Shown here: positions 765-25,787 of the stretch, in pieces
Layout: each line of letters starts with the position of its first letter
How positions within the stretch are numbered: the stretch's first letter is position 1
Source of the DNA: Flavobacteriales bacterium
Lineage (GTDB): Bacteria; Bacteroidota; Bacteroidia; Flavobacteriales_D; Crocinitomicaceae
Direction: 5' to 3'
Assembly (NCBI GenBank): GCA_947463385.1
Contig: CANHSL010000015.1
Location: 1 to 37,069, forward strand
Length of the DNA: 37,069 nt
Made by a program: the position numbers and the translations under genes
Notes under the pieces: generated by a model
The model's input: only the letters and a program-made list of their open reading frames with translations
Database searches by the model: none
Told to the model about the DNA's origin: nothing

Positions 765-3104
765 TTACAATTTAATAATTCGAACGGTTTTAACGCCTTG
801 CTTATCTGCTGCGTTTACAAAATAAATACCTTGTGGCGCATCTAAGTGGGTGGTCACTTCTTTTTGATTGATTACTTGGGTTTCGAAAAGTATTTTTCCT
901 CCCATATCTGTGATCGTCAGTTGACCCGAAAAATCTGTTGCGAAGCTTATACCTAGTTCGCTAACTACCGGATTTGGCGCCACGCTAAACGGTGCTGAAG
1001 ACATTTCATCTAAGCCAATGTTATTGACGGTGACGCAATTTGAAGTGTCTGAACAGCCTCCGGCGTTGGTGCTAATCACCGCATACGTTCCGTTCTGCGT
1101 TACTAAAAGCGAAGTACCATTTGCCCCAGGTAAGCTTGCGCCCGTGGTGCAATTTATCCATTGATACGTTAATCCCGTTGTATTCGAACACAAAAGCTCC
1201 GTACCATTCGAGGGATTCAGAGCAACCGTATTCGTTATCTGGTCTACAAACAAATGAAGAGTAACCAAACTATCACATCCTTGTATTGTATTATAGGTTG
1301 CGGTATAATCTCCCGCTTGGGTGTAATATTGTCCGTTAAACAATACTTGTTCTCCTTGACAGATGGTTTGGGTTGATTCGCTGGTTTGACTTGCGCAACC
1401 AATATAAATGAAATCGCGGTACGTTGTTGACGCCAAGGCATCCACTTGCGCATCGATTGTAGTATATCCCGTGGCCCCGTTTACAAAATTACTTGGATTC
1501 GTTGTGCTATTTGAAACTGAAATCGGCGTACTGATTCCCCAAAGTACCGTGCTTGCACCGATTGCCTCTGCGATCATGGTAGCATTAGAACATAACACAT
1601 AAGACACATGAATTACCGGTTGATTTTGTAAATTAAAGGTATCTATTTGATTTAACAGTGTATCCCCATAAACAAGGAACACTGCTTGGCTAATTCCATT
1701 CGCGCCATCGCCTCCTTTGCCGCCTGCTCCGCCAGCCCCACCGGCTCCACCGGCTCCACCATCACCAATTTCTGCTGTACACGTAGCCTGAACGCCACCG
1801 CCTGAACCGCCATTTCCACCAGTACCTCCGTTTCCACCAACACCGCCAGTGCCTGCAGCACCTGCCTGAATATAACAATCTAAGAGATTTCCATTAGCGC
1901 CGTTGTAATTAATATAAATTCCAAACGAACTTCCGGCACCATATCCGCCTTGACCACCTTGGCCGCCTTGGCCACCGCCGCCGCCGCCAGATCCACCATT
2001 TCCTGGACCATTATTGCAAAAAGTACAGGTCTGACGTCCACCGCCGCCACCAGAACCGCCACCAGAACCGCCGCATCCATCTGTACCGTTAGCGGCTTGA
2101 GTTCCTGGGGCCCAAAAACCAGCTTGATTGGTTCCTGATGGCCCATTCGCACCAGGCACTCCTGCCGTTCCTGCCACACCGTTTCCTCCGGCAGTTCCAT
2201 TTCCTCCCGGATCCCCTTCGTTTCCTTTGTTTCCTGCAGCACCTCCATTTCCACATGCTGATGCGCCACCAACGGCCCCTAATCCAGCATTATTATTAGA
2301 ACACTCATCTCCTCCTGCACCGCCTCCTGCACCTGAGCCTCCATTTCTTCCTGTTCCTGCCAAGCCCACAGAACCAGGATTCGAATTTCCTGTTTGTTGG
2401 GCTCCTCCTGCACCACCCGCAACGCCGCCGCCGCCTTGACCGCCAATACCACCGTTTCCTCCAGGGTCTCCACTACCGAAAGTACAATCTCCTCCATTAC
2501 AGCTTCCTGAACCTCCTTGTGCACCATTTCCGCCATTAACCCCATTAGACCCTACCGAACTGCTTAATCCTGCTCCAGCAGCACCTGCTAATACTTGACA
2601 GCGAACTAAATCGTATGAAGAACAACTATCCATATAAATTCCATACACCGAAACGCCATAAGGCTGTGCTTGTGACGGTGCGGGCGCATTCGCTGTTTGA
2701 ATCGTTAAATCCTGGAAGCGGAACCCGCTTTTATTAACCAATTCTATGGCTGATAAACGAAGTGCATTGGTGGGACCTGCCGGATTAAGATTTGATCGCA
2801 AAATAGTGGTAGCACCCGCTAAGCTGGTTTTAGTCCAAGCCAAGGTATCTAGAAATCCACCTTCAACCACCACGTTCTGACCATTTAAGGTTAATGAACT
2901 TTGTATGGTATACGTTCCTGCAGCCACTCTAATGTAACTGCCATTGGGCGCGGTTGTAAACGCCGTCGTTAAATCCATGGGGTCGTTCTGTGAACCAATG
3001 CCCGTTGGTAAACCACTCGTAGTTACATAAATAATTTCACATTGAGAAAAAGCTGTAATTGCTAAAAAAAGCGAAAACACAACTAAGTATATACGTTTGT
3101 TCAT
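765..3104 (-). CDS. T9SS-secreted glycine-rich beta-helix surface protein
   Basis: A 779-residue protein starting at the ATG at 3104. That start is chosen over an upstream in-frame ATG (3203) because it begins a clean signal peptide, M-N-K-R-I-Y-L-V-V-F ending A-F-S-Q (residues 1-21). Residues 22-175 look like right-handed beta-helix rungs (G-S-Y-I-R-V-A-A-G-T-Y-T-I, then N-V-V-V-E-G-G-F). Residues about 176-390 and 414-470 are over half glycine, with Asn, Ala, Ser and scattered paired cysteines (C-N-G-G-D-C, C-T-F-C). Residues 575-622 form the Bacteroidota repeat ending G-C-D-S-L-V-T-L. The last 85 residues are a T9SS type A sorting domain (V-A-P-N-P, D-M-G-G-K, G-I-Y-F-V-N-A, V-R-I-I-K-L). 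It is probably attached to or shed from the cell surface; substrate and role are unknown. Two strongly similar rungs precede the two glycine-rich blocks, suggesting an internal duplication. Confidence 0.85.
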   Translation of the reverse strand: MNKRIYLVVFSLFLAITAFSQCEIIYVTTSGLPTGIGSQNDPMDLTTAFTTAPNGSYIRVAAGTYTIQSSLTLNGQNVVVEGGFLDTLAWTKTSLAGATTILRSNLNPAGPTNALRLSAIELVNKSGFRFQDLTIQTANAPAPSQAQPYGVSVYGIYMDSCSSYDLVRCQVLAGAAGAGLSSSVGSNGVNGGNGAQGGSGSCNGGDCTFGSGDPGGNGGIGGQGGGGVAGGAGGAQQTGNSNPGSVGLAGTGRNGGSGAGGGAGGDECSNNNAGLGAVGGASACGNGGAAGNKGNEGDPGGNGTAGGNGVAGTAGVPGANGPSGTNQAGFWAPGTQAANGTDGCGGSGGGSGGGGGRQTCTFCNNGPGNGGSGGGGGGQGGQGGQGGYGAGSSFGIYINYNGANGNLLDCYIQAGAAGTGGVGGNGGTGGNGGSGGGVQATCTAEIGDGGAGGAGGAGGAGGKGGDGANGISQAVFLVYGDTLLNQIDTFNLQNQPVIHVSYVLCSNATMIAEAIGASTVLWGISTPISVSNSTTNPSNFVNGATGYTTIDAQVDALASTTYRDFIYIGCASQTSESTQTICQGEQVLFNGQYYTQAGDYTATYNTIQGCDSLVTLHLFVDQITNTVALNPSNGTELLCSNTTGLTYQWINCTTGASLPGANGTSLLVTQNGTYAVISTNAGGCSDTSNCVTVNNIGLDEMSSAPFSVAPNPVVSELGISFATDFSGQLTITDMGGKILFETQVINQKEVTTHLDAPQGIYFVNAADKQGVKTVRIIKL

Positions 3105-9579: not shown

Positions 9580-11841
9580 ATGAAAAAATTATTATTCTTT
9601 TTGAGTGTATTAACAGCTTTTCACGGGAGCTTTGCACAACAAGGAAACGGAGGTACAGGACATTACTTTCCTGAAGCAGGATGGAAAACGATTCCGTTAA
9701 TTACGTATCCTACCCCTGATGTCGAAGCCTTAAGGCAAGAAGATTTAATCTTAGATGAACAAGGAGAACAACCGTGGAGATTTGGTTTCAATCACCCCAC
9801 ACAAATTAACAGCAGTTCTAATGGCACCTGGATACAAGCAAAAAACGGAGACTTAATTTGGTTGGTTCGAATCAAATGCCCCGAAGCATTAACCATCAAC
9901 CTTGCCTTTAATCAAACAGAAATTCCTACTGGAAATGAACTCTATGTTTACAATCCAGATAAAACATTCATTCTTGGTAAATTCACTCAAGAACATCTTT
10001 ATGAAGGACAACTGGGTACTGAATTGGTTCCTGGAGATGAGGTGATCATTGAATATTATGTACCGGCAAGCAATGAAAAGGGTCATGTGCAACTTAACAA
10101 CGTAACGCACGGGTATAGAACAGCTAGGGAATTTCATGAAAAAGCCTTTGGAAGTTCTGGAAACTGTAACCTGAATGTGAATTGTCCGCAAGGTGGACCT
10201 TGGCAACTAGAGCGAAACGGTGTGGTTATGCTGGTTTCCGGAAACAGCGGGTTTTGTTCAGGTTCCTTAATCAATAATTCGTTGAATAATGGTAAGCCTT
10301 ATGTTCTTACAGCCAACCATTGCTTCAGTAATCCTGCTACCTGGGTTTTTCGATTTAATTGGCAAAGCGCGGGATGTAATAACCCGGCCACGGAGCCCAC
10401 ATTTCAATCCTTGAGTGGAGGCGTTTTACGCGCTAGAGCAAGTGCTTCTGATTTTTGCCTCGTTGAAATTACAGGGGGTCTGCAAGGAGGAACCGTACCG
10501 GCGGCATATACACCCTACTTTAATGGCTGGGATAATTCCGGGAACACACCTACTTCAGCTGTTGGTATCCATCATCCATCCGGTGACATTAAGAAAATAT
10601 CGTTTGAAAATAACCCACTTATTTCCACAACCTTTGGTGGAAGTCCCGCAAATTCACACTGGGGAGTAACAAGTTGGGATGAAGGTGTTACTGAGGGTGG
10701 GTCTTCAGGGTCTCCTTTGTTTGATCAAAACCATAGAATCATTGGTCAATTACACGGGGGAGCATCTGCCTGTGGAGCACCTGTATTATCGGATGAATAT
10801 GGAAAAATTAGTTATTCTTGGACCCCAGCGAACAGCGATAGTACAAACCAACTCAAGTATTGGTTAGACCCAACGCAGTCAAACGCTACATTTGTTAATG
10901 GATACGATCCTTCTGGCGGTGTTCCAATTCAAGTTGACCCGATAGTATCAGCCGTTGGTGGAGTCTCTGGAACCTTTTGTAGCGCCGAAGTAACGCCAAC
11001 CGTAACCATTGCAAACGGTGGCGCTGTTACCTTAACTTCAGTAACGATTACCTATGGGTTTGACGGAAACAACAACCTTACTTACAACTGGACTGGATCA
11101 CTTGCTCAATGGCAATCCACAACCATAACACTACCTACAGCTAGTCTGAGTAACGGAATACATACGTTTAACGCAATCGTCGGTAATCCAAATACCGGAG
11201 TTGACGAAAACAATGTAAACAATACACAAAGCAGTACCTTAAATGTGGTGTTAAACGGACAGTCTGTTATATTGGGTCTTACTTTAGATTGTTACGGGTC
11301 TGAAACCTCCTGGGAACTCCAAAATGCTACAGGTACTGTAATTTATTCGGGTAGTGGATATCAAGACGATGCGGCGGGCTTGGTTACGGAAACGTGGTGT
11401 TTAGACTTTGGATGTTATGCCTATGTGATTGAAGATTCTTATGGCGATGGGATTTACGGCTTACCGTGGTGTCAAACCAGTGGAAGCGTTTTAATTTCTA
11501 CACTCGGTGATTCGTTAACGGGAATTTCTGAAGCTAATTCAGACTTCGGAGCCTCAACAACACTTAATTTTTGCGTAACCGGCGGCGGCGTAAATTCATT
11601 AAACGAAGAAACGTTTACTGTTTATCCAAATCCAAGTCATGAGTTAATTCATTGGGTTTCTTCTTCACCTGTCACATCGTATTCACTGAGCGATATTCAG
11701 GGAAAACGAATCATTGAAAATCACGTGGTAAAAACTACCCAATTCAATATTTCATTAGAAAATCTAAGCATTGGAATGTATTTCTTGGATTGCATATTTG
11801 AAAACGGGAGATCCGGACAAATTCAGGTAATTAAAAACTAA
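9580..11841 (+). CDS. T9SS-secreted trypsin-fold serine protease (lysyl endopeptidase-like)
   Basis: A 753-residue protein. The signal peptide ends S-F-A-Q (residue 20). Residues about 30-190 form a propeptide-like beta-rich region. The S1 protease domain (about 205-440) has the triad His247 (L-T-A-N-H-C-F), Asp291 (A-S-D-F-C-L-V) and Ser376 (G-G-S-S-G-S-P-L-F-D), with cysteines that could form disulfides. The S-S-G-S-P form in place of G-D-S-G-G-P is typical of lysyl endopeptidase-like S1 members of Bacteroidota. After it come a CARDB-like beta domain (about 450-560), a Cys-containing beta domain with D-S-Y-G-D-G-I-Y-G (about 560-665), and a T9SS type A sorting domain from 681 (V-Y-P-N-P, I-Q-G-K-R, G-M-Y-F-L). 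It is expected on the surface or in the medium. Substrate specificity is not proven by sequence. Confidence 0.9.
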   Translation: MKKLLFFLSVLTAFHGSFAQQGNGGTGHYFPEAGWKTIPLITYPTPDVEALRQEDLILDEQGEQPWRFGFNHPTQINSSSNGTWIQAKNGDLIWLVRIKCPEALTINLAFNQTEIPTGNELYVYNPDKTFILGKFTQEHLYEGQLGTELVPGDEVIIEYYVPASNEKGHVQLNNVTHGYRTAREFHEKAFGSSGNCNLNVNCPQGGPWQLERNGVVMLVSGNSGFCSGSLINNSLNNGKPYVLTANHCFSNPATWVFRFNWQSAGCNNPATEPTFQSLSGGVLRARASASDFCLVEITGGLQGGTVPAAYTPYFNGWDNSGNTPTSAVGIHHPSGDIKKISFENNPLISTTFGGSPANSHWGVTSWDEGVTEGGSSGSPLFDQNHRIIGQLHGGASACGAPVLSDEYGKISYSWTPANSDSTNQLKYWLDPTQSNATFVNGYDPSGGVPIQVDPIVSAVGGVSGTFCSAEVTPTVTIANGGAVTLTSVTITYGFDGNNNLTYNWTGSLAQWQSTTITLPTASLSNGIHTFNAIVGNPNTGVDENNVNNTQSSTLNVVLNGQSVILGLTLDCYGSETSWELQNATGTVIYSGSGYQDDAAGLVTETWCLDFGCYAYVIEDSYGDGIYGLPWCQTSGSVLISTLGDSLTGISEANSDFGASTTLNFCVTGGGVNSLNEETFTVYPNPSHELIHWVSSSPVTSYSLSDIQGKRIIENHVVKTTQFNISLENLSIGMYFLDCIFENGRSGQIQVIKN

Positions 11842-13381: not shown

Positions 13382-13859
13382 GTTGTTCTTTTTGGTAAAA
13401 TTAGTCATTTGATAACATGTGTATAGGCTTGTTAATTAGTATTGAAAAATGCTCAAAGAAAAAGCTAGGAATTTTCAATCCTTTATCTCTATATACAAGT
13501 AATTATAATATGTACTAAAAGTTTAAAGATTCTTTCCGTTTTTGATGCACCGCTTATTAACGAAAATCAGTTACTTAAAAGATGAAACTTATACACGCGA
13601 TGAAGTTATACATAGAAGTTAATAAGGAATCATAAACAAAGGTAATAAAGGGAATATTCGCATTAATTAATGTTAATAAACCGTTGAAATCCCGTTAATA
13701 GTAATCGATGGTTAACAAAAGCATCTTATTTTTACACAAATGAACAGCCTTAATAGAATTAATAAAAATTCTTTTAAATAAATATCTTTTAATACAATTA
13801 ACTGCTGTGAATAGAATTAACTAGGTAGTATTGATTCGAATTTTTACTTTTATCACAAG
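13382..13859. other. 478-bp gene-free AT-rich region; candidate replication origin
   Basis: No gene is supported here. Both flanking genes point away from it. Five 9-mers match TTATNCACA with one mismatch: 13418-13426 (-, CTATACACA), 13589-13597 (+, TTATACACG), 13606-13614 (+, TTATACATA), 13730-13738 (+, TTTTACACA) and 13806-13814 (-, CTATTCACA). GTTAATA occurs at 13618, 13672 and 13694, and the 11-mer AATAGAATTAA at 13752 and 13810. Bases 13750-13800 are almost pure A/T and could serve as an unwinding element. A parS match lies 4.2 kb downstream, near mnmG, a frequent oriC neighbour in other phyla. There is no dnaA here and no perfect DnaA box, so the origin call is an inference. Promoters for rpiB and the DUF4175 operon must also lie here. 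Confidence 0.45.
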
Positions 13860-17237: not shown

Positions 17238-17651
17238 ATGAAACATCAATTACAATTAATCCATGAAGTAACTCTACCTTCAACACCAGCCTCCATTACG
17301 GATGTTGAAAGTTTAATTGATGTAGCTTGTGGTGAGTTAGCGCTTAGTGAAGACGCGTATGGTAATATTTTAATCGCGGTAACAGAAGCGGTAAACAATG
17401 CCATCATCCACGGGAATAAGTTGGATGCAACCTTATCTGTACATGTTGGAGTTCACAACAACGAAGAATGGGTGTGTTTTTCTGTCAAGGACCAAGGAAC
17501 AGGGTTTGATCCTGAAATAATTCCAGATCCAACCGCACCTGAGAATCTTTTAAAAGAAAATGGACGTGGTATTTTCCTTATGAAAAACTTATCTGATGAA
17601 GTTAGTTATGATGAAAATGGTACCGTGGTAAATGTTTGTTTTCGTCGATGA
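17238..17651 (+). CDS. HATPase domain protein, RsbW/anti-sigma kinase-like
   Basis: A 137-residue stand-alone GHKL ATPase of the HATPase_c_2 group. The N-box is at E50-A-V-N-N54-A-I-I-H-G, the G1 box at D85-Q-G87-T-G89-F-D, and the G2 box at N-G109-R-G111-I-F-L-M. Relatives include the anti-sigma factor serine kinases RsbW and SpoIIAB. No sigma factor, STAS antagonist or phosphatase is adjacent, so the partner is unknown; in Bacteroidota this gene is commonly found beside ybeY. It follows the DUF4175 gene by 9 bp, and its stop codon overlaps the ybeY start (ATGA), so translational coupling is likely. Confidence 0.85.
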   Translation: MKHQLQLIHEVTLPSTPASITDVESLIDVACGELALSEDAYGNILIAVTEAVNNAIIHGNKLDATLSVHVGVHNNEEWVCFSVKDQGTGFDPEIIPDPTAPENLLKENGRGIFLMKNLSDEVSYDENGTVVNVCFRR

Positions 17652-18073
17652 TTTCAGTTGATTATTACTCGAACGAAATTCCTGGACTTCCTTTAGACTC
17701 TTTGGTTAATACCCTTCCTGTGTTGGTGGAAACCGAAGGGTGTGATTTAGGAGAAATTACGATTGTTTTCTGTACAGACGAAGAGCTACTTGAGCTGAAT
17801 AAGCAGCATTTGTCCCATGATTATTTTACGGATATTATTACGTTTAACTACAATGATGGAAAAACGCTAAGCGGCGATTTGTTTGTTTCTACGGATAGAA
17901 TTCTTGATAACGCTAAACAATTGGAAGTTCCATTTACAGAGGAATTACACCGAGTATGTTATCACGGTGTGCTGCATTTAGTGGGGTATAACGATAAAAC
18001 AGATGCAGATTGTTTACTCATGCGCGAGAAAGAGAACTACTATTTAAATAAATTGTTTCACGTGAAACAATGA
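17648..18073 (+). CDS. ybeY: Endoribonuclease YbeY (rRNA maturation factor)
   Basis: Metal-dependent RNase involved in 16S rRNA 3'-end maturation and ribosome quality control. It has 141 residues from the ATG at 17648, which overlaps the preceding stop (ATGA); an upstream TTG would add four residues and is less likely. Family blocks are D-I-I-T-F-N-Y (62-68), G-D-L-F-V-S (76-81) and the metal motif H106-G-V-L-H110-L-V-G-Y-N-D116. The third ligand, His in E. coli (H-x3-H-x5-H), is Asp here, a substitution I recall as usual in Bacteroidota. The last six residues, L-F-H-V-K-Q, are encoded by a palindrome matching parS. MnmG starts 12 bp downstream. Confidence 0.93.
   Translation: MISVDYYSNEIPGLPLDSLVNTLPVLVETEGCDLGEITIVFCTDEELLELNKQHLSHDYFTDIITFNYNDGKTLSGDLFVSTDRILDNAKQLEVPFTEELHRVCYHGVLHLVGYNDKTDADCLLMREKENYYLNKLFHVKQ
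18052..18071. other. parS: parS-like centromere site (ParB-binding palindrome)
   Basis: A perfect 20-bp palindrome whose core TGTTTCACGTGAAACA (18054-18069) is identical to the consensus chromosomal parS bound by ParB/Spo0J. It lies inside the coding sequence, supplying the ybeY codons for Leu-Phe-His-Val-Lys-Gln before TGA. Known parS sites cluster near chromosome origins, so this suggests the window is origin-proximal. No parA or parB gene is present in the window. It could in principle be a terminator-like inverted repeat, but it has no loop, no T-tract and an exact parS sequence, so I favour parS. Confidence 0.85.
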
Positions 18074-18085
18074 TTCAATTTTACC

Positions 18086-19954
18086 ATGTTAGATACCTAT
18101 GACGTTATTGTAGTTGGTGCGGGTCATGCCGGGTGTGAAGCCGCAAATGCCGCCGCCAAGATGGGTAGTAAGGTCTTGTTACTTACTATGAATATGAACA
18201 CCATAGCTCAAATGAGTTGTAATCCAGCAATGGGGGGTGTCGCTAAAGGACAAATCGTTCGTGAAATAGATGCCTTGGGTGGTGGTTCTGGGATAGTTAG
18301 TGATAAAAGTGCCTTGCAATTTAGAATGTTAAACCTTTCTAAAGGTCCTGCGATGTGGTCGCCAAGAACACAGAACGATCGCATGATGTTTGCTGCTGAA
18401 TGGCGTTACCTCTTGGAACAAAATCCGAATGTTGATTTCTGGCAAGATATGGGAACGGGTATTATTGTAGAAGATAATAAGGTTGTTGGTGTTAAAACTA
18501 GTCTAGGTATAAACATTTATAGTCGGGCTGTTGTACTAACAAATGGAACCTTTCTTAATGGAATTATTCACCTAGGAGAAAAACAATTTGGTGGTGGAAG
18601 AGCTGCCGAGCGGGCATCTACAGGAATAACCGAAGACCTGATTTCTTTAGGGTTTGAGTCTGGCAGAATGAAGACCGGAACACCGCCTCGAGTAGATGGT
18701 AGAAGTTTGGATTATACTAAAATGGAAATCCAACACGGCGATGAAAACCCCTCTAAATTTAGTTATTGGGACACCAATGCGTTGGCTCATCAATTACCTT
18801 GTTATATCACCTATACCAATCCCGAAACACACGATAAGTTACGGCTTGGGTTTGATCGATCGCCAATGTTTAATGGGGCAATAAAAAGTACAGGTCCAAG
18901 GTATTGTCCAAGCATTGAGGATAAAATTAATCGCTTTGCGGACCGTGATCGGCATCAAATTTTTGTGGAGCCCGAAGGGTGGAACACCGTTGAAATCTAT
19001 GTGAATGGGTTCAGTACCTCCTTACCAGAAGATGTGCAAGTAAATGCGATAAAGTCAATTCCTGGTTTTGAACACGCCAAGTTATTTAGACCGGGGTATG
19101 CCATTGAATACGATTATTTTCCACCAACGCAACTGAAACATACCTTAGAAACTAAATTAATTAATGGACTGTATTTTGCCGGACAGATTAATGGTACCAC
19201 AGGTTATGAGGAAGCCGCATGTCAAGGCCTGATGGCGGGCATAAATGCCCACCTGGCTGTAAATGGTAAGGATCCGTTTACACTCCAACGAAGCGAAGCA
19301 TATATCGGTGTGTTAATTGATGACCTTGTAACGAAAGGAACGAAAGAACCTTACCGCATGTTTACCAGCAGGGCGGAATACAGAATTTTGTTGCGTCAAG
19401 ATAATGCGGATTTACGACTCAGCGTCAAAGCGAAAGCCTTGGGATTGATTAGCTCGGAACAACACGATCAAGTAATTAAAAAGGAGCAACAAACCCAATG
19501 GCTTAAAAAAGAACTTAAATCCATAGGCATTACTCCTCAAGAAATTAACCCTCATTTAATTCAACTGGACTCTGCGCCTATTTCGCAGCAAGTAAAATTA
19601 TCGAGCGTATTAACGAGACCAGGAGTCACCATGGATATGCTCACCAACGCATCAAATTTATTATCTAATACATTGATAAACAATGATATAGGTGAGGATG
19701 TGGTGGTTCAAACCGAAATTCAAGTCAAATATGAAGGATATATAGAACGTGAGGAAGAAATCGCTGAAAAAATGCATCGATTGGAACGTGTTCAAATTCC
19801 TTCGGATTTGAATTATGCCCAATTGAAAAGTTTAAGCACAGAAGCTGTTGAGAAATTAACACAGATTCAACCCGTGACCATTGGACAAGCATCCCGGATT
19901 TCAGGTGTTTCACCAAGTGATATCTCTGTACTTTTAATCTATTTGGGAAGATAA
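18086..19954 (+). CDS. mnmG: tRNA uridine-5-carboxymethylaminomethyl(34) synthesis enzyme MnmG (GidA)
   Basis: FAD enzyme that, with MnmE, adds the carboxymethylaminomethyl group at the wobble uridine of certain tRNAs. It has 622 residues, the usual length. The N-terminal FAD-binding motif is G11-A-G-H-A-G16, followed by the family signatures [11 protein letters not shown] (45-55), [10 protein letters not shown] and [13 protein letters not shown]. Further on are [10 protein letters not shown] and the C-terminal helical domain that contacts MnmE and tRNA (Y-E-G-Y-I-E-R, then I-S-G-V-S-P). It closes the DUF4175 operon. mnmG lies beside oriC or parS in many bacteria; here the parS match is 16 bp before its start. 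No rsmG follows. Confidence 0.97.
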
Positions 19955-20107: not shown

Positions 20108-21052
20108 ATGAAGGTATTTTTTATTGATAAGGTTCATCCGGTACTTCAAGAGCGATTAGTTCGAAATGGTTTTGATTGCATCGATGCAACGCATTTTTCT
20201 ATGGATGATTTGTTGCAACGTAAAAATGAAGTCCAAGGCTTTGTAATTCGTGCTAGATTTTTTTTAAATACTGAATTCTTATCCAACTTTCTAAACCTCT
20301 CATTTATTGCGCGTTCCGGTTCCGGTTTAGAGAATATTGATGCAGCATATTGCAAAGCGCATCAGATCCAGTTGTTTAATTCTCCCGAAGGAAATCGAAA
20401 TGCGGTGGCTGAACACGCACTGGGTATGTTACTCGCCTTAATGAATAAACTCTGTAAAGCAAACGAACAAATAAATCGGGGAATTTGGAAGCGCGAAGAA
20501 AACCGTGGCGAAGAATTGGATGGTAAAACGGTTGGAATCATTGGCTACGGAAATAACGGTGCTGCCTTCGCGAAGAAGTTGAGGGGCTTCGATGTGAAGG
20601 TGCTGGCTTATGATAAATTCAAACAAGGATTCGGCGATACCTTTGTTCAGGAAAGCACCTTAGAAGCGATTTTTAATACCGCAGATGTTCTTTCTCTTCA
20701 TATTCCGCAAAACAAAGAAACAGTAGCTTTTGTAAATGAGGCCTTTATTAATTCGTTTAAAAAGCCTTTTTACTTATTGAATTTGTCCAGGGGTAAAATC
20801 GTTCATACGGAATCCTTAATTAAGGCATTAGAATCTAATAAAATAAAAGCCGCAGGTTTAGATGTGCTTGAATATGAATCCAAAGATTTTGAATCCATTT
20901 TCGCTAATCAACTACCCGCGGCGTTTCAATACCTTCTTGATTCAGATCGCGTGTTGCTCAGTCCGCATGTAGGCGGCTGGACCAAAGAAAGTTACTTCAA
21001 ACTGAGCGATGTGCTCGCTGATAAAATAATTTCCTTTTACGAACATCAATAG
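20108..21052 (+). CDS. D-2-hydroxyacid dehydrogenase (phosphoglycerate dehydrogenase-like)
   Basis: A 314-residue NAD-dependent dehydrogenase. The Rossmann motif is G146-Y-G148-N-N-G151. Catalytic residues can be assigned as Arg228 (N-L-S-R-G-K), Glu257 (L-D-V-L-E-Y-E) and His287 (S-P-H-V-G-G-W). The substrate-side R-S-G-S-G-L-E-N-I-D (69-78) is like SerA of Bacteroidota. There is no ACT domain, so if it is 3-phosphoglycerate dehydrogenase it is the short form without serine feedback; no serC or serB adjoins to confirm this, and glycerate or lactate-type dehydrogenases remain possible. It is transcribed alone; 153 bp upstream hold a weak TACTTTAG box 6 nt before the ATG. Its 3' end overlaps the convergent amidase by 7 bp. 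Confidence 0.85.
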   Translation: MKVFFIDKVHPVLQERLVRNGFDCIDATHFSMDDLLQRKNEVQGFVIRARFFLNTEFLSNFLNLSFIARSGSGLENIDAAYCKAHQIQLFNSPEGNRNAVAEHALGMLLALMNKLCKANEQINRGIWKREENRGEELDGKTVGIIGYGNNGAAFAKKLRGFDVKVLAYDKFKQGFGDTFVQESTLEAIFNTADVLSLHIPQNKETVAFVNEAFINSFKKPFYLLNLSRGKIVHTESLIKALESNKIKAAGLDVLEYESKDFESIFANQLPAAFQYLLDSDRVLLSPHVGGWTKESYFKLSDVLADKIISFYEHQ

Positions 21053-23991
21053 GAAACCAGTTGCTTCGTTAATTCATACCCATTACCAGTAAGTTTAACG
21101 ATATACAGACCCGTGTTTATTGACAGCTTCACGCTCCCATCATGGGGGAGTTCTTGCGTATAGATTAATTTTCCGTTTAAGTCAAACACTTCAACTGCCA
21201 CAGGGAACAGGAGGTTCTCAATGTGTAATATTCCTTCTTGAATTGGATTCGGATACAATAGTATATTAACTAAGGGATTTGCCAACTCGATATTGGCTTG
21301 ATTGATGTATCGCTGCCCGTCTGAACAGCTTGTAGCATTAATTCCCGCGTGGTTCCCACAGGTCAGCGAGGTGTAATACATAGTGTTTGGTGTAAGACTT
21401 AAGGAGTTTATCATGAATGCATTGCTTGCTGTGCTTTGGTTTTGTATAATGTCATTCCCAAACGGAGTAGTTCCAATATCAAAAAAGGCACTGCTAATTC
21501 CCGAATTTGGGTCGTTTACTACCCAATTTCCTTCAAGAATTGGCTGGTACACGCTGTCTATATCGCTTGCAGCGCCATCATTCAACGCTGTAAGTACCGG
21601 CGCGGTCCAGTCCACTTGAACCAATGTTTCATGTGGAACGTTCCAATTTTCGAGGCTATCCATAGCAATAACTCGAATCTTTCCACTTTCTTGTTGTTGG
21701 TCACTTTGATGAGCGATTTCTTGCCCAGGTCCAACCGTAATTTGTTCGCTATGTGAGTGGTTTTTATATACATAAACCTCATCAAATGTTACGGTACACG
21801 CGCCAGAACGCAAGGAAATAGCCGTGCCTTGTTGGAGCGGATTAGCATCGGTCCAACTACAAACGTGCACAGAATTTAGGTACACTTGAATTAACCCACT
21901 TTGTGGATTATAGGTAACATAAACTTGGTCCCATTGGTTTACTAAGATATTAACTGAATCTTCTTTCACCAAGGTAAAGGCATCGTTCAATACTTTGTAT
22001 AATTGAACCTTATCCGTTTCTTCTCTAAAATAAACAAAGTAGGAATTGCCTCGATTCGGTAGGGTAGGATCGCTACAGAAAAAGTGCATTCCCGCGCGTT
22101 GATTGGCGTTCGACGAAGTTATGCGTTGTTTCCATGTATATAAGTACGTGTGTTGTGACGTTTGACTAACTTGGGCATATGCGTTTGAATTATTCTGTGT
22201 GGCATCATTCAAGAGAAAGCTTCCATTCATAGCTTGAAAATTACCGGATTGATTGGTCCAAAGCCCCGTATTGGCAGTGAATTCATCTACAAAAAAGCCC
22301 ATCGTTTGATTGGATAAGAATGGTGTTGTTGCGGATGTTCTTGAAGCGACATGATAGAATTTATGTTTTATTCCAGAGGCGTCTGTATCTTGAAAAGAGG
22401 CCGTGAACGCTTGAGTTTGCCAAATCCCCGAATAGCTAATGCTGCTTGTGGGTGGACTAAGGTCTACGTTAAGTGCCACGCTTTGATAGCTTGCTACCCA
22501 TCCAGCAAGTTGCGTAGCACAATCGGAACGAAACTCAAGTGTTAGGGTATTTCCCGTAGATTGAATGTTTGGCGGAAGAGCGTTTCCTGTATAGGTTCCA
22601 AGCACAGGCGCATTAACCGTCGACCCATTGTATATAATTAACTTATCAAAAGATGTTTCCAGTTCGAATGCGGCAAATTGGATGTAAATGCTGCTTCCTT
22701 GAGGAGCTTGAATGAGCCACACGGTTCGTTCGTCTGCCGCGTAGTTTCCATTCGGTCCTCCTGAATCATAGAGTGTTCCCGAAGAATTCGTGAGTACCGT
22801 TGGTGTGTAGGTATCGTTAATTAACCCGTAATATTTGTTCCAGTTCCAATGTATTCCAGGATCGGTATGGCTCTGATTCGCATAATGCTGATGTCCTTTG
22901 ATTCGGATGCAATTCCCTAGTAATTGCGTGCTCGTGGAACCCGCGCCGTCATAGGTTCTTTTCGGGTTTATTCCATATCCACTTTGGGTAATGTCTTTAA
23001 CCAAATTCGCTGAAGATTGGTAGAGGGACTGGGTATACCATGCGGCATTAGATACATAGCCCTCATGTTCGATCCCAACTGTGTAGGAGTTTTCATTCCC
23101 TACGTGCCATGCTTTATTGCTTTCTAATACCATTTGGGTTACCTGTCCATCTGAACTTCGAACCACATAATGATAAGAAACTTGCGCATTACAATTAAGT
23201 CCCCACGAAATTGCCCCCGCATAGGTTCCTTGAACCGTATGTATGGTTACCGCTGAAATCGGGGTACCGTTTCTACCACTGAAATTACATGAAGGAGCGG
23301 CATTCCAAAGCGCGGGACCGTAATTAATTGATTTTAATGAGTTTCCGGCATGGTACCTTGTGTTCTCTTGGTTCTTAACACCAGTTGAATCAATGGTAAT
23401 GTGCGTAGCGGTTAACACAGAAAAATTGCTTTTTCCAAAGAAATCCTTCAGGTTTATTTCATACAAAGGAAAACCATAACTCGCGGAATGATATTCATCC
23501 GTTAAGAAACGAAACACTTCTAACACACTGGATTCGAAGGCAAAGTGGTTGATGCTTCCTTCTCTTGGAATCTCACTCAATTCCCACATTAGGTTATAGA
23601 TTAATTCCGGGGTGTTTTCTCCGGATACCGTATAGCTTTGAATTAGGCTTGCGCAAGCCGCGGCGTAGGCTTCAACCTGCACGTATGTACTGTTTTTTTG
23701 ATCAGCAATACTAATTCCACTTAAGGATTCAATGCGTTTACCATTTTCAATAAAATAATTCTGGCCATGATCATAAACGCCCATGATTCCATAAGGAATT
23801 GGAATACCAGAACAGCTCACGTGTTCTTGGCTGGATATGTCATGAAATCGGGTATGGGTATAGGAAATTGCTTCTAAAAATCCAGGAGGAATTTCTGGGT
23901 GATGTTGATAGGCGGGTGAAAAAAACGAACCCTGGCTGAACACCGACAAGTGCAGGGATAGGACGAGATAAATAAAAAGTAGTTTAGGCAT
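21046..23991 (-). CDS. T9SS-secreted N-acetylmuramoyl-L-alanine amidase with CUB and lectin-like domains
   Basis: A 981-residue protein. The signal peptide ends S-V-F-S-Q (residue 20). Residues 21-240 are an N-terminal region of unknown type. An Amidase_2 (AmpD/PGRP-like) domain spans about 243-395: zinc ligands His251 (V-T-I-H-T), His367 (K-G-H-Q-H) and Asp377 (S-H-T-D-P-G-I-H-W), with Glu308 in V-G-I-E-H-E-G. The 10-residue His-Asp spacing equals that of AmpD. A CUB domain (398-505) follows, then an Ig-like stretch, a LamG/concanavalin-like domain (about 566-744), a short fibronectin-like part and a T9SS type A domain from 912 (L-Y-P-N-P, D-L-N-G-K, G-L-Y-I-V-K). It should cleave the MurNAc-L-alanine bond outside the cell. 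Natural targets are unknown. Confidence 0.9.
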   Translation of the reverse strand: MPKLLFIYLVLSLHLSVFSQGSFFSPAYQHHPEIPPGFLEAISYTHTRFHDISSQEHVSCSGIPIPYGIMGVYDHGQNYFIENGKRIESLSGISIADQKNSTYVQVEAYAAACASLIQSYTVSGENTPELIYNLMWELSEIPREGSINHFAFESSVLEVFRFLTDEYHSASYGFPLYEINLKDFFGKSNFSVLTATHITIDSTGVKNQENTRYHAGNSLKSINYGPALWNAAPSCNFSGRNGTPISAVTIHTVQGTYAGAISWGLNCNAQVSYHYVVRSSDGQVTQMVLESNKAWHVGNENSYTVGIEHEGYVSNAAWYTQSLYQSSANLVKDITQSGYGINPKRTYDGAGSTSTQLLGNCIRIKGHQHYANQSHTDPGIHWNWNKYYGLINDTYTPTVLTNSSGTLYDSGGPNGNYAADERTVWLIQAPQGSSIYIQFAAFELETSFDKLIIYNGSTVNAPVLGTYTGNALPPNIQSTGNTLTLEFRSDCATQLAGWVASYQSVALNVDLSPPTSSISYSGIWQTQAFTASFQDTDASGIKHKFYHVASRTSATTPFLSNQTMGFFVDEFTANTGLWTNQSGNFQAMNGSFLLNDATQNNSNAYAQVSQTSQHTYLYTWKQRITSSNANQRAGMHFFCSDPTLPNRGNSYFVYFREETDKVQLYKVLNDAFTLVKEDSVNILVNQWDQVYVTYNPQSGLIQVYLNSVHVCSWTDANPLQQGTAISLRSGACTVTFDEVYVYKNHSHSEQITVGPGQEIAHQSDQQQESGKIRVIAMDSLENWNVPHETLVQVDWTAPVLTALNDGAASDIDSVYQPILEGNWVVNDPNSGISSAFFDIGTTPFGNDIIQNQSTASNAFMINSLSLTPNTMYYTSLTCGNHAGINATSCSDGQRYINQANIELANPLVNILLYPNPIQEGILHIENLLFPVAVEVFDLNGKLIYTQELPHDGSVKLSINTGLYIVKLTGNGYELTKQLVSY

Positions 23992-24068: not shown

Positions 24069-25787
24069 TTAAAATTTAATAGTTACTCCACCAAACACTG
24101 AAATAGGCATAACAGGATAGTTGTAAAACTTGAGGTATCGTTGCGATGCGATGTTATTAAGTTGAACGAATCCAGAAATTCGCTTATTATATCGATACTC
24201 TAACCCAAGATTACCATCAATTATATTTCCCATGTTATAGGCAAATTGGTTGTTGATTTCGCTAACATGTTCACCGGCTTCATACACTTTAGCATATCGT
24301 CCGAATGACATATCCAGTCCGGCTTTCACAAGAAACTTATCGAATAAATTATAGGTCATATTTAATAAAACCTCAGCGGTTGGTAGATTCCAAGCCTTAG
24401 CCTCATTAAACATTTCATATGAATGATATCGAGCAATTAAGTCGGCACTTAGTTTCTTATTGGCTTCATACCCAAATCGACCTTCGATTTTTGTGTGATT
24501 TAAGGAATCATACACCAACATAAATTTGTTTCCTGTGGAAATTAGGGTGTCGTTCACAAAAAATGCGCGGTTATTTTCCTTTACAAAATTTGCCATTAAA
24601 CCGTAACTTATGGCTTTCTTGCTTCTTCCTTTAATTCCCAATTGGATGTCGTACGGATTTATTTCATTTTGTATGTTCATGTTAGGGAGCACAAAATTAT
24701 TTTCTTGGTAAAAAGACGTTAACGAACCTTGTTTAACCTGTCCGTTTAACTTTATAAAGGGAATCAACTGGTCGTTTAATAGTGCGTATTGCATATGGAT
24801 CGCGGGGAAGAAATAAGCGCGTGTTTGCTCTGCCACATCAATACTTACCTTGAATCCAGCATCTATGGTTAATTTGTTTTGTACTAAATGACTTTTAACA
24901 CCAGGATTTAAATCAATTACGGTGTTTTTTCTAACGATACCACTATCGGATAGGTTTAAAATAGAATCTTGTATACCGTAAGTATACCCGTTGTATCGAA
25001 GGCCTAAATCTCCATAAAATAAGGTAGAACCACTTCTAAATGTACCTAATCCACTTAAGCTGAATCCTTGTTCTTTTGCCTTCCAGTCGGACAAACTATC
25101 TATAAACGGCGCATCTGTTCCGGTATATCTAAAGTTTAGGCTTGTTTTTAAGTTAAAAACACCGGTATCCCCGCGATTTGTAGTGATATCCGCATGTGCA
25201 TTTACCAATTGATAACGCTGAGCAATAGAATCCTTATTTACATCCGGTTGAGTTAACCCGTAATAATGAAACCCGTGGTTAGTGTAATTTAATTTACTGC
25301 TTATGCTCACGTTCTTTTGAAAGGTTTCAAAATTTCCTTGGACGCTTGTTTTATCAAAGCTAGCGGGAGCCATGAGTTGTTTTTCTCTGTTTTTTATGTC
25401 TCCAAAAAAACTAAGGTGTTTCACGTGTAATCCATAATAATTAGATCTAGAACGTGTCGAATTAACATAAAGCTCCCCTAATGGCATTAATGTGGACCCC
25501 ATCCCCAGTTTTAAATAAAAGGGATAAAACTTTTCTAGCAACTGTTCTGTTTCAATGCTTGCTGCTTGAATGGTATCCACTTGGATTTTCACGTTTAATT
25601 TTGGTCCAAGTAAGGCACGATTAGGAACGGCTGATGTTTTAATGGAGTCAATTATCTTTGGCGCAGAGGAAATACGATGGGCACGTTCAATATCTCTGTT
25701 TCCTTTTCCATCGGTTTCAAAAACGTCAGATTGAGCAAAAAGCAAAGGAACCCAACCCCCAATCAATAAAATCAAAAAGTACTTCAT
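24069..25787 (-). CDS. Predicted outer-membrane beta-barrel protein (TonB-receptor-like)
   Basis: A 572-residue protein from the ATG at 25787, which begins the signal peptide M-K-Y-F-L-I-L-L-I-G-G-W ending L-L-F-A-Q (1-19). The upstream in-frame ATG at 25832 would put 15 polar residues before it and overlap the TPR gene. After a short N-terminal region with repeated Ile/Thr/Asp, alternating hydrophobic and polar strands continue to the end (for example L-N-Y-T-N-H-G-F-H-Y-Y-G, L-G-L-E-Y-R-Y-N-K-R). The last residue is Phe (V-T-I-K-F), the outer-membrane assembly signature. There is no clear plug domain or TonB box, so porin-like is as likely as TonB-dependent. It starts one base after the TPR gene stop, so the two products probably work together. 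Confidence 0.75.
   Translation of the reverse strand: MKYFLILLIGGWVPLLFAQSDVFETDGKGNRDIERAHRISSAPKIIDSIKTSAVPNRALLGPKLNVKIQVDTIQAASIETEQLLEKFYPFYLKLGMGSTLMPLGELYVNSTRSRSNYYGLHVKHLSFFGDIKNREKQLMAPASFDKTSVQGNFETFQKNVSISSKLNYTNHGFHYYGLTQPDVNKDSIAQRYQLVNAHADITTNRGDTGVFNLKTSLNFRYTGTDAPFIDSLSDWKAKEQGFSLSGLGTFRSGSTLFYGDLGLRYNGYTYGIQDSILNLSDSGIVRKNTVIDLNPGVKSHLVQNKLTIDAGFKVSIDVAEQTRAYFFPAIHMQYALLNDQLIPFIKLNGQVKQGSLTSFYQENNFVLPNMNIQNEINPYDIQLGIKGRSKKAISYGLMANFVKENNRAFFVNDTLISTGNKFMLVYDSLNHTKIEGRFGYEANKKLSADLIARYHSYEMFNEAKAWNLPTAEVLLNMTYNLFDKFLVKAGLDMSFGRYAKVYEAGEHVSEINNQFAYNMGNIIDGNLGLEYRYNKRISGFVQLNNIASQRYLKFYNYPVMPISVFGGVTIKF

Follow-up and report, generated by a model that had tools for sequence, protein, structure and literature searches.

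ParB, a chromosome-sorting protein, forms a CTP-dependent clamp. This clamp is described in the available parts of two reports (PMC7053999, PMC8367383). The word TGTTTCACGTGAAACA serves as the consensus by which parS sites are located, according to accessible portions of a third (PMC10197239) and, through it, the survey of Livny et al. 2007. In the same portions, the parS sites cluster at the origin in 12 gut bacteria, two of them Bacteroidetes and so of the same phylum as the DNA analysed here, and the clusters themselves served to decide between skew shifts when the origin was placed. There, dnaA is not always at the origin, no known condensin was found in the two Bacteroidetes and the genes around parS are unnamed (PMC10197239).

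Two further reports, each represented by excerpts, bear on the subject. R173 and G201 are absolutely conserved in ParB and are Q and R in Noc, marking parS versus NBS binding, and position 170 is a conserved parS-contacting Gly (PMC7383237). In Mariniflexile (Flavobacteriaceae), a region beside mnmG is predicted as oriC and dnaA lies off the GC skew; this oriC is an Ori-Finder 2022 prediction, one legend swaps the oriC and ter labels, and parS is not discussed in the excerpt (PMC11278836).

Here, we analysed a whole stretch of 37,069 nucleotides from a Flavobacteriales bacterium, called the window below. It carries a palindrome at the ybeY-mnmG junction that is almost certainly the docking site of ParB. 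We examined its conservation, its position relative to the replication origin and parAB, and the protein tail that it encodes.

Results

The parS core in the window is an exact match of the consensus and is enclosed by a perfect palindrome of 20 bp (Table 1), whereas the surrounding 22 bp are not palindromic in a self reverse-complement check. Its first base lies 32 bp 5′ of the mnmG start. By translation, YbeY ends in ...NKLFHVKQ*, and the six final codons (LFHVKQ) read the parS DNA in frame 1. At the base composition of the window, 1.4e-5 exact copies of TGTTTCACGTGAAACA are expected by chance per window and 0.001 per 2.6-Mb genome. The preliminary description had claimed the identity with the consensus, the extension to 20 bp, the reading as LFHVKQ next to mnmG and the improbability of such a match in 37 kb, and all of these stand.

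Table 1. Positions of the parS site, its neighbouring genes and the parS-like arrays of other loci
Feature	Sequence	Position	Strand	Remarks
parS core TGTTTCACGTGAAACA, predicted ParB nucleation site	window	18054..18069	.	exact consensus match; same word at same junction in relatives
20-bp perfect palindrome ATTGTTTCACGTGAAACAAT, encloses parS core	window	18052..18071	.	equals its own reverse complement
ybeY, rRNA maturation RNase	window	17648..18073	+	TIGR00043, 91 bits, cut-off 45
mnmG (gidA)	window	18086..19954	+	TIGR00136, 857 bits, cut-off 525; neighbour in most sampled relatives
RsbW-like HATPase gene	window	17238..17651	+	PF13581, 95 bits; upstream of ybeY with 4-bp overlap
parS-like array	L111 (Flavobacterium)	1310-2421		
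parS-like array	L110 (Terrimonas)	1557-2452		
parS-like array	L264	1502-1928		one genus shared with L265 and L266
parS-like array	L265	1434-1776		one genus shared with L264 and L266
parS-like array	L266	1297-1793		one genus shared with L264 and L265

Looser searches were made around the site and in the genome. The window holds 3 places at ≤3 mismatches versus 0.24 expected from shuffling, and the junction scanned at 17600-18300 holds no second, decayed site at ≤4 mismatches. Weak parS-like matches with 3 mismatches each are found within genes at 21625-21640 and 25417-25432. The whole-genome search at 0–2 mismatches, proposed in the preliminary description, returns this site as the sole place at ≤2 mismatches in the 171 contigs. 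The reversed control word also has 1 place at ≤2 mismatches, so the weight of the own-genome search rests only on the exactness of the match.

Among the neighbours, the RsbW-like HATPase gene is also found by tblastn 5′ of ybeY in G016 and L251-L255. The best named matches of MnmG, with 73–78% identity, are from metagenome-assembled genomes (MAGs) that carry the labels Flavobacteriales, Chryseobacterium gleum, Fluviicola and Crocinitomicaceae. On this basis, the window is assigned to a Crocinitomicaceae-like bacterium of the Bacteroidota, and the Chryseobacterium label is probably wrong. Two MAG contigs, L034 and L040, are titled Chryseobacterium gleum and Limnohabitans, respectively. In the MnmG tree, L034 clusters with one genome from the genus of the window at a support of 100/99, and the L040 MnmG is 67% identical to that of the window; both are probably mislabelled bins. 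Elsewhere in the window, a trypsin-like peptidase (9580-11841) and an AmpD-like amidase (21046-23991) both carry type IX secretion sorting tails.

The site is retained in near relatives. At ≤1 mismatch to TGTTTCACGTGAAACA, a search that is blind to the common form TGTTCCACGTGGAACA, it is present in 45/60 relatives and the reversed word in 5/60. Within the genus, 34/37 genomes have it, and the three without are 66, 68 and 88% complete. Two or three sites occur in 28 of the 34 and one in the other six (G000, G001, G004, G011, G024 and G036), the window's genome being among these six. The two sites start 24–50 bp apart in 26 of the 28 multi-site genomes, and in G013 and G029 they are ~1.9 kb apart, which is the length of mnmG.

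In all 30 loci taken from the 45 positive relatives with flanks of ≤1.5 kb, mnmG and/or ybeY is present; in L004 and L005, the site lies 0.7–0.85 kb past the mnmG end. The preliminary description had taken scattered hits as evidence against a centromere. They are not scattered, as each of the 34 positive genus genomes has its ≤1-mismatch sites at one place, save an extra 1-mismatch variant on another contig in G019, G025 and G033.

To look beyond the genus, 80 Bacteroidota loci were chosen by MnmG alone, as the top 80 among at least 591 matches, and lean towards near relatives. In their 533 kb, TGTTYCACGTGRAACA is matched 147 times at ≤1 mismatch and the reversed word not once. Most of the sites (129/147) are ≤200 bp from an mnmG end and 18 are farther; 64/80 loci have at least one site this close to mnmG. 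In the 64 loci with a ybeY end <300 bp 5′ of mnmG, the site is found in 60, and the other four (L052, L088, L093 and L097) have a 2-mismatch site in the ybeY-mnmG junction. A site also lies just 3′ of mnmG, with no YbeY there, in 45/80.

The 16 loci without a site near mnmG comprise these four, one cut-off locus and 11 with no ybeY within 300 bp upstream. Those 11 are seven Saprospiraceae/Lewinella/Lewinellaceae, one Phaeodactylibacter and three without a family label. In a phylum sample, the exact site is present in 292/392 genomes, usually 1–3 times each, and absent from 100/392; the reversed word occurs in 2/392 by our own reading of the table. Thirty loci from the site-positive phylum genomes have mnmG within the 3-kb stretch in 23 and lack it in 7.

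The ybeY-mnmG address is thus common to most of the sampled Bacteroidota. A chance match is ruled out by the exact site, the MnmG-selected loci and the phylum sample taken together. We found no publication stating an mnmG-linked parS in Bacteroidota in a search that left most subscription journals outside, so the link is not shown to be unpublished.

Some lineages carry the site elsewhere. The whole genomes of 13 of the 16 site-less MnmG loci were searched and exact sites were found in 6. In four of these (L114, L116, L119 and L123) and the phylum locus L248, the site starts 4–95 bp past the end of thrC; in L115 it adjoins ybeY, and in L118 and the other six mnmG-less phylum loci different genes lie beside it. 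Hence, the site has moved in some lineages. Genomes with labels such as Lewinella and Phaeodactylibacter have a site or a pair at thrC (threonine synthase), and not at mnmG.

In five loci, arrays of 7 to 11 parS-like sites separate ybeY from mnmG (Table 1). L111 has a twelfth site 3′ of mnmG, and four of its sites fall within ~117-bp repeats with the variant TGTTCCACATGGAACA.

The preliminary description called for parAB in the same genome, and both genes are there. The one ParB-family match, on contig C6, has the ParB_N, HTH_ParB and ParB_C domains (PF17762, PF02195, PF23552) and scores 180 bits with TIGR00180 at a cut-off of 58. Its gene is directly downstream of a ParA-type ATPase gene, named by family resemblance and position with no NCBIfam model above cut-off, and is followed 3′ by a short unnamed gene and by genes read as dapB and lepB. 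A ParB match is found in 53/60 relatives, and in 41/42 of those with ≥90% completeness and ≤5% contamination. Its relatives in the Protein Data Bank, 14 sequences, are chiefly chains of ParB, Spo0J and Noc, and KorB is among the weaker matches.

In Caulobacter numbering counted from Q162, this ParB retains Q162, K171, S172, R173, N178, G201 and R204, and has S, H and K at 170, 179 and 184, respectively. Ser170 departs from the usual Gly and Lys184 matches Noc, both of which count against the parS reading. With R and G at 173 and 201 instead of the Q and R of Noc/NBS, the genome encodes a parS-type ParB together with a ParA, as in ParABS.

The site is away from these genes. Unlike in the classical cluster, no parS was found within a few kb of parAB. 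In the window's genome, parS is on C15 and parB on C6; in G016, they are also on different contigs. In both relatives with the two on one contig, the distance is 1.1–1.2 Mb: in G038, parB is at 2,878 kb of 3,980 kb, or 1.12 Mb from parS if the contig is a closed circle, and in G049 parS is at 468–470 kb and parB at 1,696 kb. G019 has, besides the pair at mnmG, a 1-mismatch variant 69 kb from parB.

The position relative to the origin was read from skew. In G038, a single 3.98-Mb contig, the cumulative GC skew from 20 samples of 20 kb, and so at 200-kb resolution, goes up to ~1.6 Mb and thereafter declines, apart from minor reversals at 2.0 and 3.4 Mb, until the last sample, where it is lowest. 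The G038 parS is 17 kb from the opposite contig end and, at this resolution, at the skew minimum. In the 2.21-Mb contig of G016, the GC skew is lowest at 979 kb, parS lies at 1,119 kb and the AT skew peaks at 1,227 kb. There, parS is 140 kb from the skew minimum within its flat bottom, as a random place would be ~13% of the time.

Moreover, the distance to the skew minimum is shorter for parS than for the DnaA-motif match in G016, and in G038 it is shorter than for parB. The DnaA-motif match (G016:C1 548948, short word only) is separated from parS by 570 kb and from the GC-skew minimum by 430 kb. In the window, the cumulative GC skew is lowest near 9.0 kb, away from the site, and a 37-kb contig is too short to inform. 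The preliminary description had located the site near the origin: this is supported in G038 at 200-kb resolution, whereas G016 is off its minimum. Overall, a parS place near the replication origin is partly supported, not proven.

G016 also has three TTATNCACA boxes in 0.85 kb (C1 1113608-1114456), 4.2 kb from parS, as the sole such group on the contig. A group of three arises in 150/1000 random placements of the 102 boxes, and three box words were tried. The group extends into an intergenic gap between the rpiB-like and DUF4175 genes, and is a weak hint of a possible origin place. The matching gap in the window, 13409-13859, is 74% A+T with one looser DnaA box (13730).

Condensin was searched as ScpB and SMC. 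Neither ScpB nor SMC above the family cut-off is found in the genomes of 20 relatives (0/20 each), while 14 control genomes give ScpB over cut-off in 9 and SMC in 10. Matches to the SMC model below cut-off occur in 20/20 relatives with a best E of 3.7e-10, and are tentatively taken as coiled-coil and RecF-like proteins.

Discussion

The palindrome is, with high probability, a chromosomal parS, likely bound by the sole ParB of this genome. By analogy with the known family, this ParB would bind the palindrome, close into a CTP-dependent clamp and slide onto the adjoining ybeY/mnmG DNA, and ParA would move the loaded regions apart after replication. The site is very probably functional. Weighing against this reading, besides Ser170 and Lys184 of ParB, are the lone site in six of the 34 positive genus genomes, the 140-kb offset in G016, the skew minimum of the window, the reversed-word hits in 5/60 relatives, and the 100/392 phylum genomes and 16/80 MnmG loci that lack a site.

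An opposite view of the ybeY end is that selection acts on the LFHVKQ tail of the protein, whose codons would yield the palindrome incidentally, and LFHVKQ/MFHVEQ-like tails do recur in many YbeY proteins. However, the same DNA in the same genus is read in the other frame as VSRET-like tails or lies past the stop. The ybeY end is readable in 111/141 loci, and the site overlaps it in 53, of which 28 are in frame 1 (FHV[KE] tails) and 25 in frame 2 (V[SP]RET tails). Among the remaining 58, 55 have a first site that begins 0–130 bp past the stop, and 3 have none within 400 bp. In a 29-row MnmG tree, the frame-1 tail is confined to one clade of three (the window, G001 and G036; support 100/99), with 23 rows in frame 2 and 3 with the site after the stop. 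The 19 FHV[KE] tails of the MnmG-selected loci, L105 (FHM) left out, all use CAC-GTG against a background of 40% CAC and 22% GTG, a count that gives no probability as the rows are related. Frame, peptide and stop position vary around a constant DNA word, so the selection is on the DNA and the site shapes the YbeY tail; the copies just after mnmG have no YbeY to encode. Selection on the peptide is ruled out by the frame changes and is left with a very slight probability. The preliminary description had proposed that a centromere site shaped this protein end and would have counted a palindrome conserved no further than the protein requires as refuting; the proposal is borne out and the refuting result is not seen. 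As ybeY ends inside the site, the final YbeY residues are best explained as a side effect of the parS DNA.

Apart from the protein, the palindrome could act as an RNA hairpin or terminator or as the operator of a local ybeY-mnmG regulator, and not as a centromere. Its place at the end of one gene and just 5′ of the next would suit this, and a bound ParB could also influence ybeY-mnmG transcription. Yet frequent variants such as TGTTCCACGTGAAACA (C opposite A) lose a hairpin pair and are still kept, from which the hairpin or terminator is judged unlikely. The same word also occurs 3′ of mnmG, and beside thrC in some genomes without it at mnmG, and it is the consensus for finding parS sites in the accessible portions of PMC10197239. 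This local role is therefore improbable as a whole, if a little less so than a selected peptide. Even fainter than both is the chance that the site serves a Noc-like nucleoid-occlusion protein instead of partition. Lys184 and a ParB score of 219 bits with the Noc model TIGR04285 speak for it, but 219 is under the cut-off of 315. The ParB is also the sole ParB-family match in the genome, lies beside a ParA-type gene and has R173 and G201 where Noc has Q and R in the excerpt of PMC7383237.

With parS as the preferred reading, the kind of site is already known, and the noteworthy part is a conserved address at ybeY-mnmG that has no linkage to parAB and comes without Smc-ScpAB. Our wider proposal, put forward tentatively and at somewhat less than even odds, is that the Bacteroidota centromere has been fixed at ybeY-mnmG through much of the phylum's history, despite parAB at least 1 Mb away and the missing Smc-ScpAB. 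The address, and not linkage to parAB, would then be selected, probably because an origin lies there, and ParABS would act without the usual condensin. The proposal includes arrays of 7–12 sites in some Flavobacterium-like genomes and a move to the thrC end in Lewinella/Phaeodactylibacter-type lineages.

As a simple sequence tag, the site can locate the centromere, and probably the region of the origin, across a large phylum for which dnaA is a poor guide. It also points to a ParABS seemingly working without Smc-ScpAB and far from its own genes. For YbeY, it is a clear case of a DNA function dictating a protein tail, and neither FHV[KE]Q nor V[SP]RET should be taken as a YbeY motif.

In comparison with known systems, this one is unlike the textbook ParABS in that parAB is away from the site, the site has a ybeY-mnmG address, and ScpB and SMC are over cut-off in 0/20. 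It is like the chromosomal parS of ParABS in its identical 16 bp, its few copies, their gathering in one cluster, and the presence of a ParA-type ATPase and a parS-type ParB.
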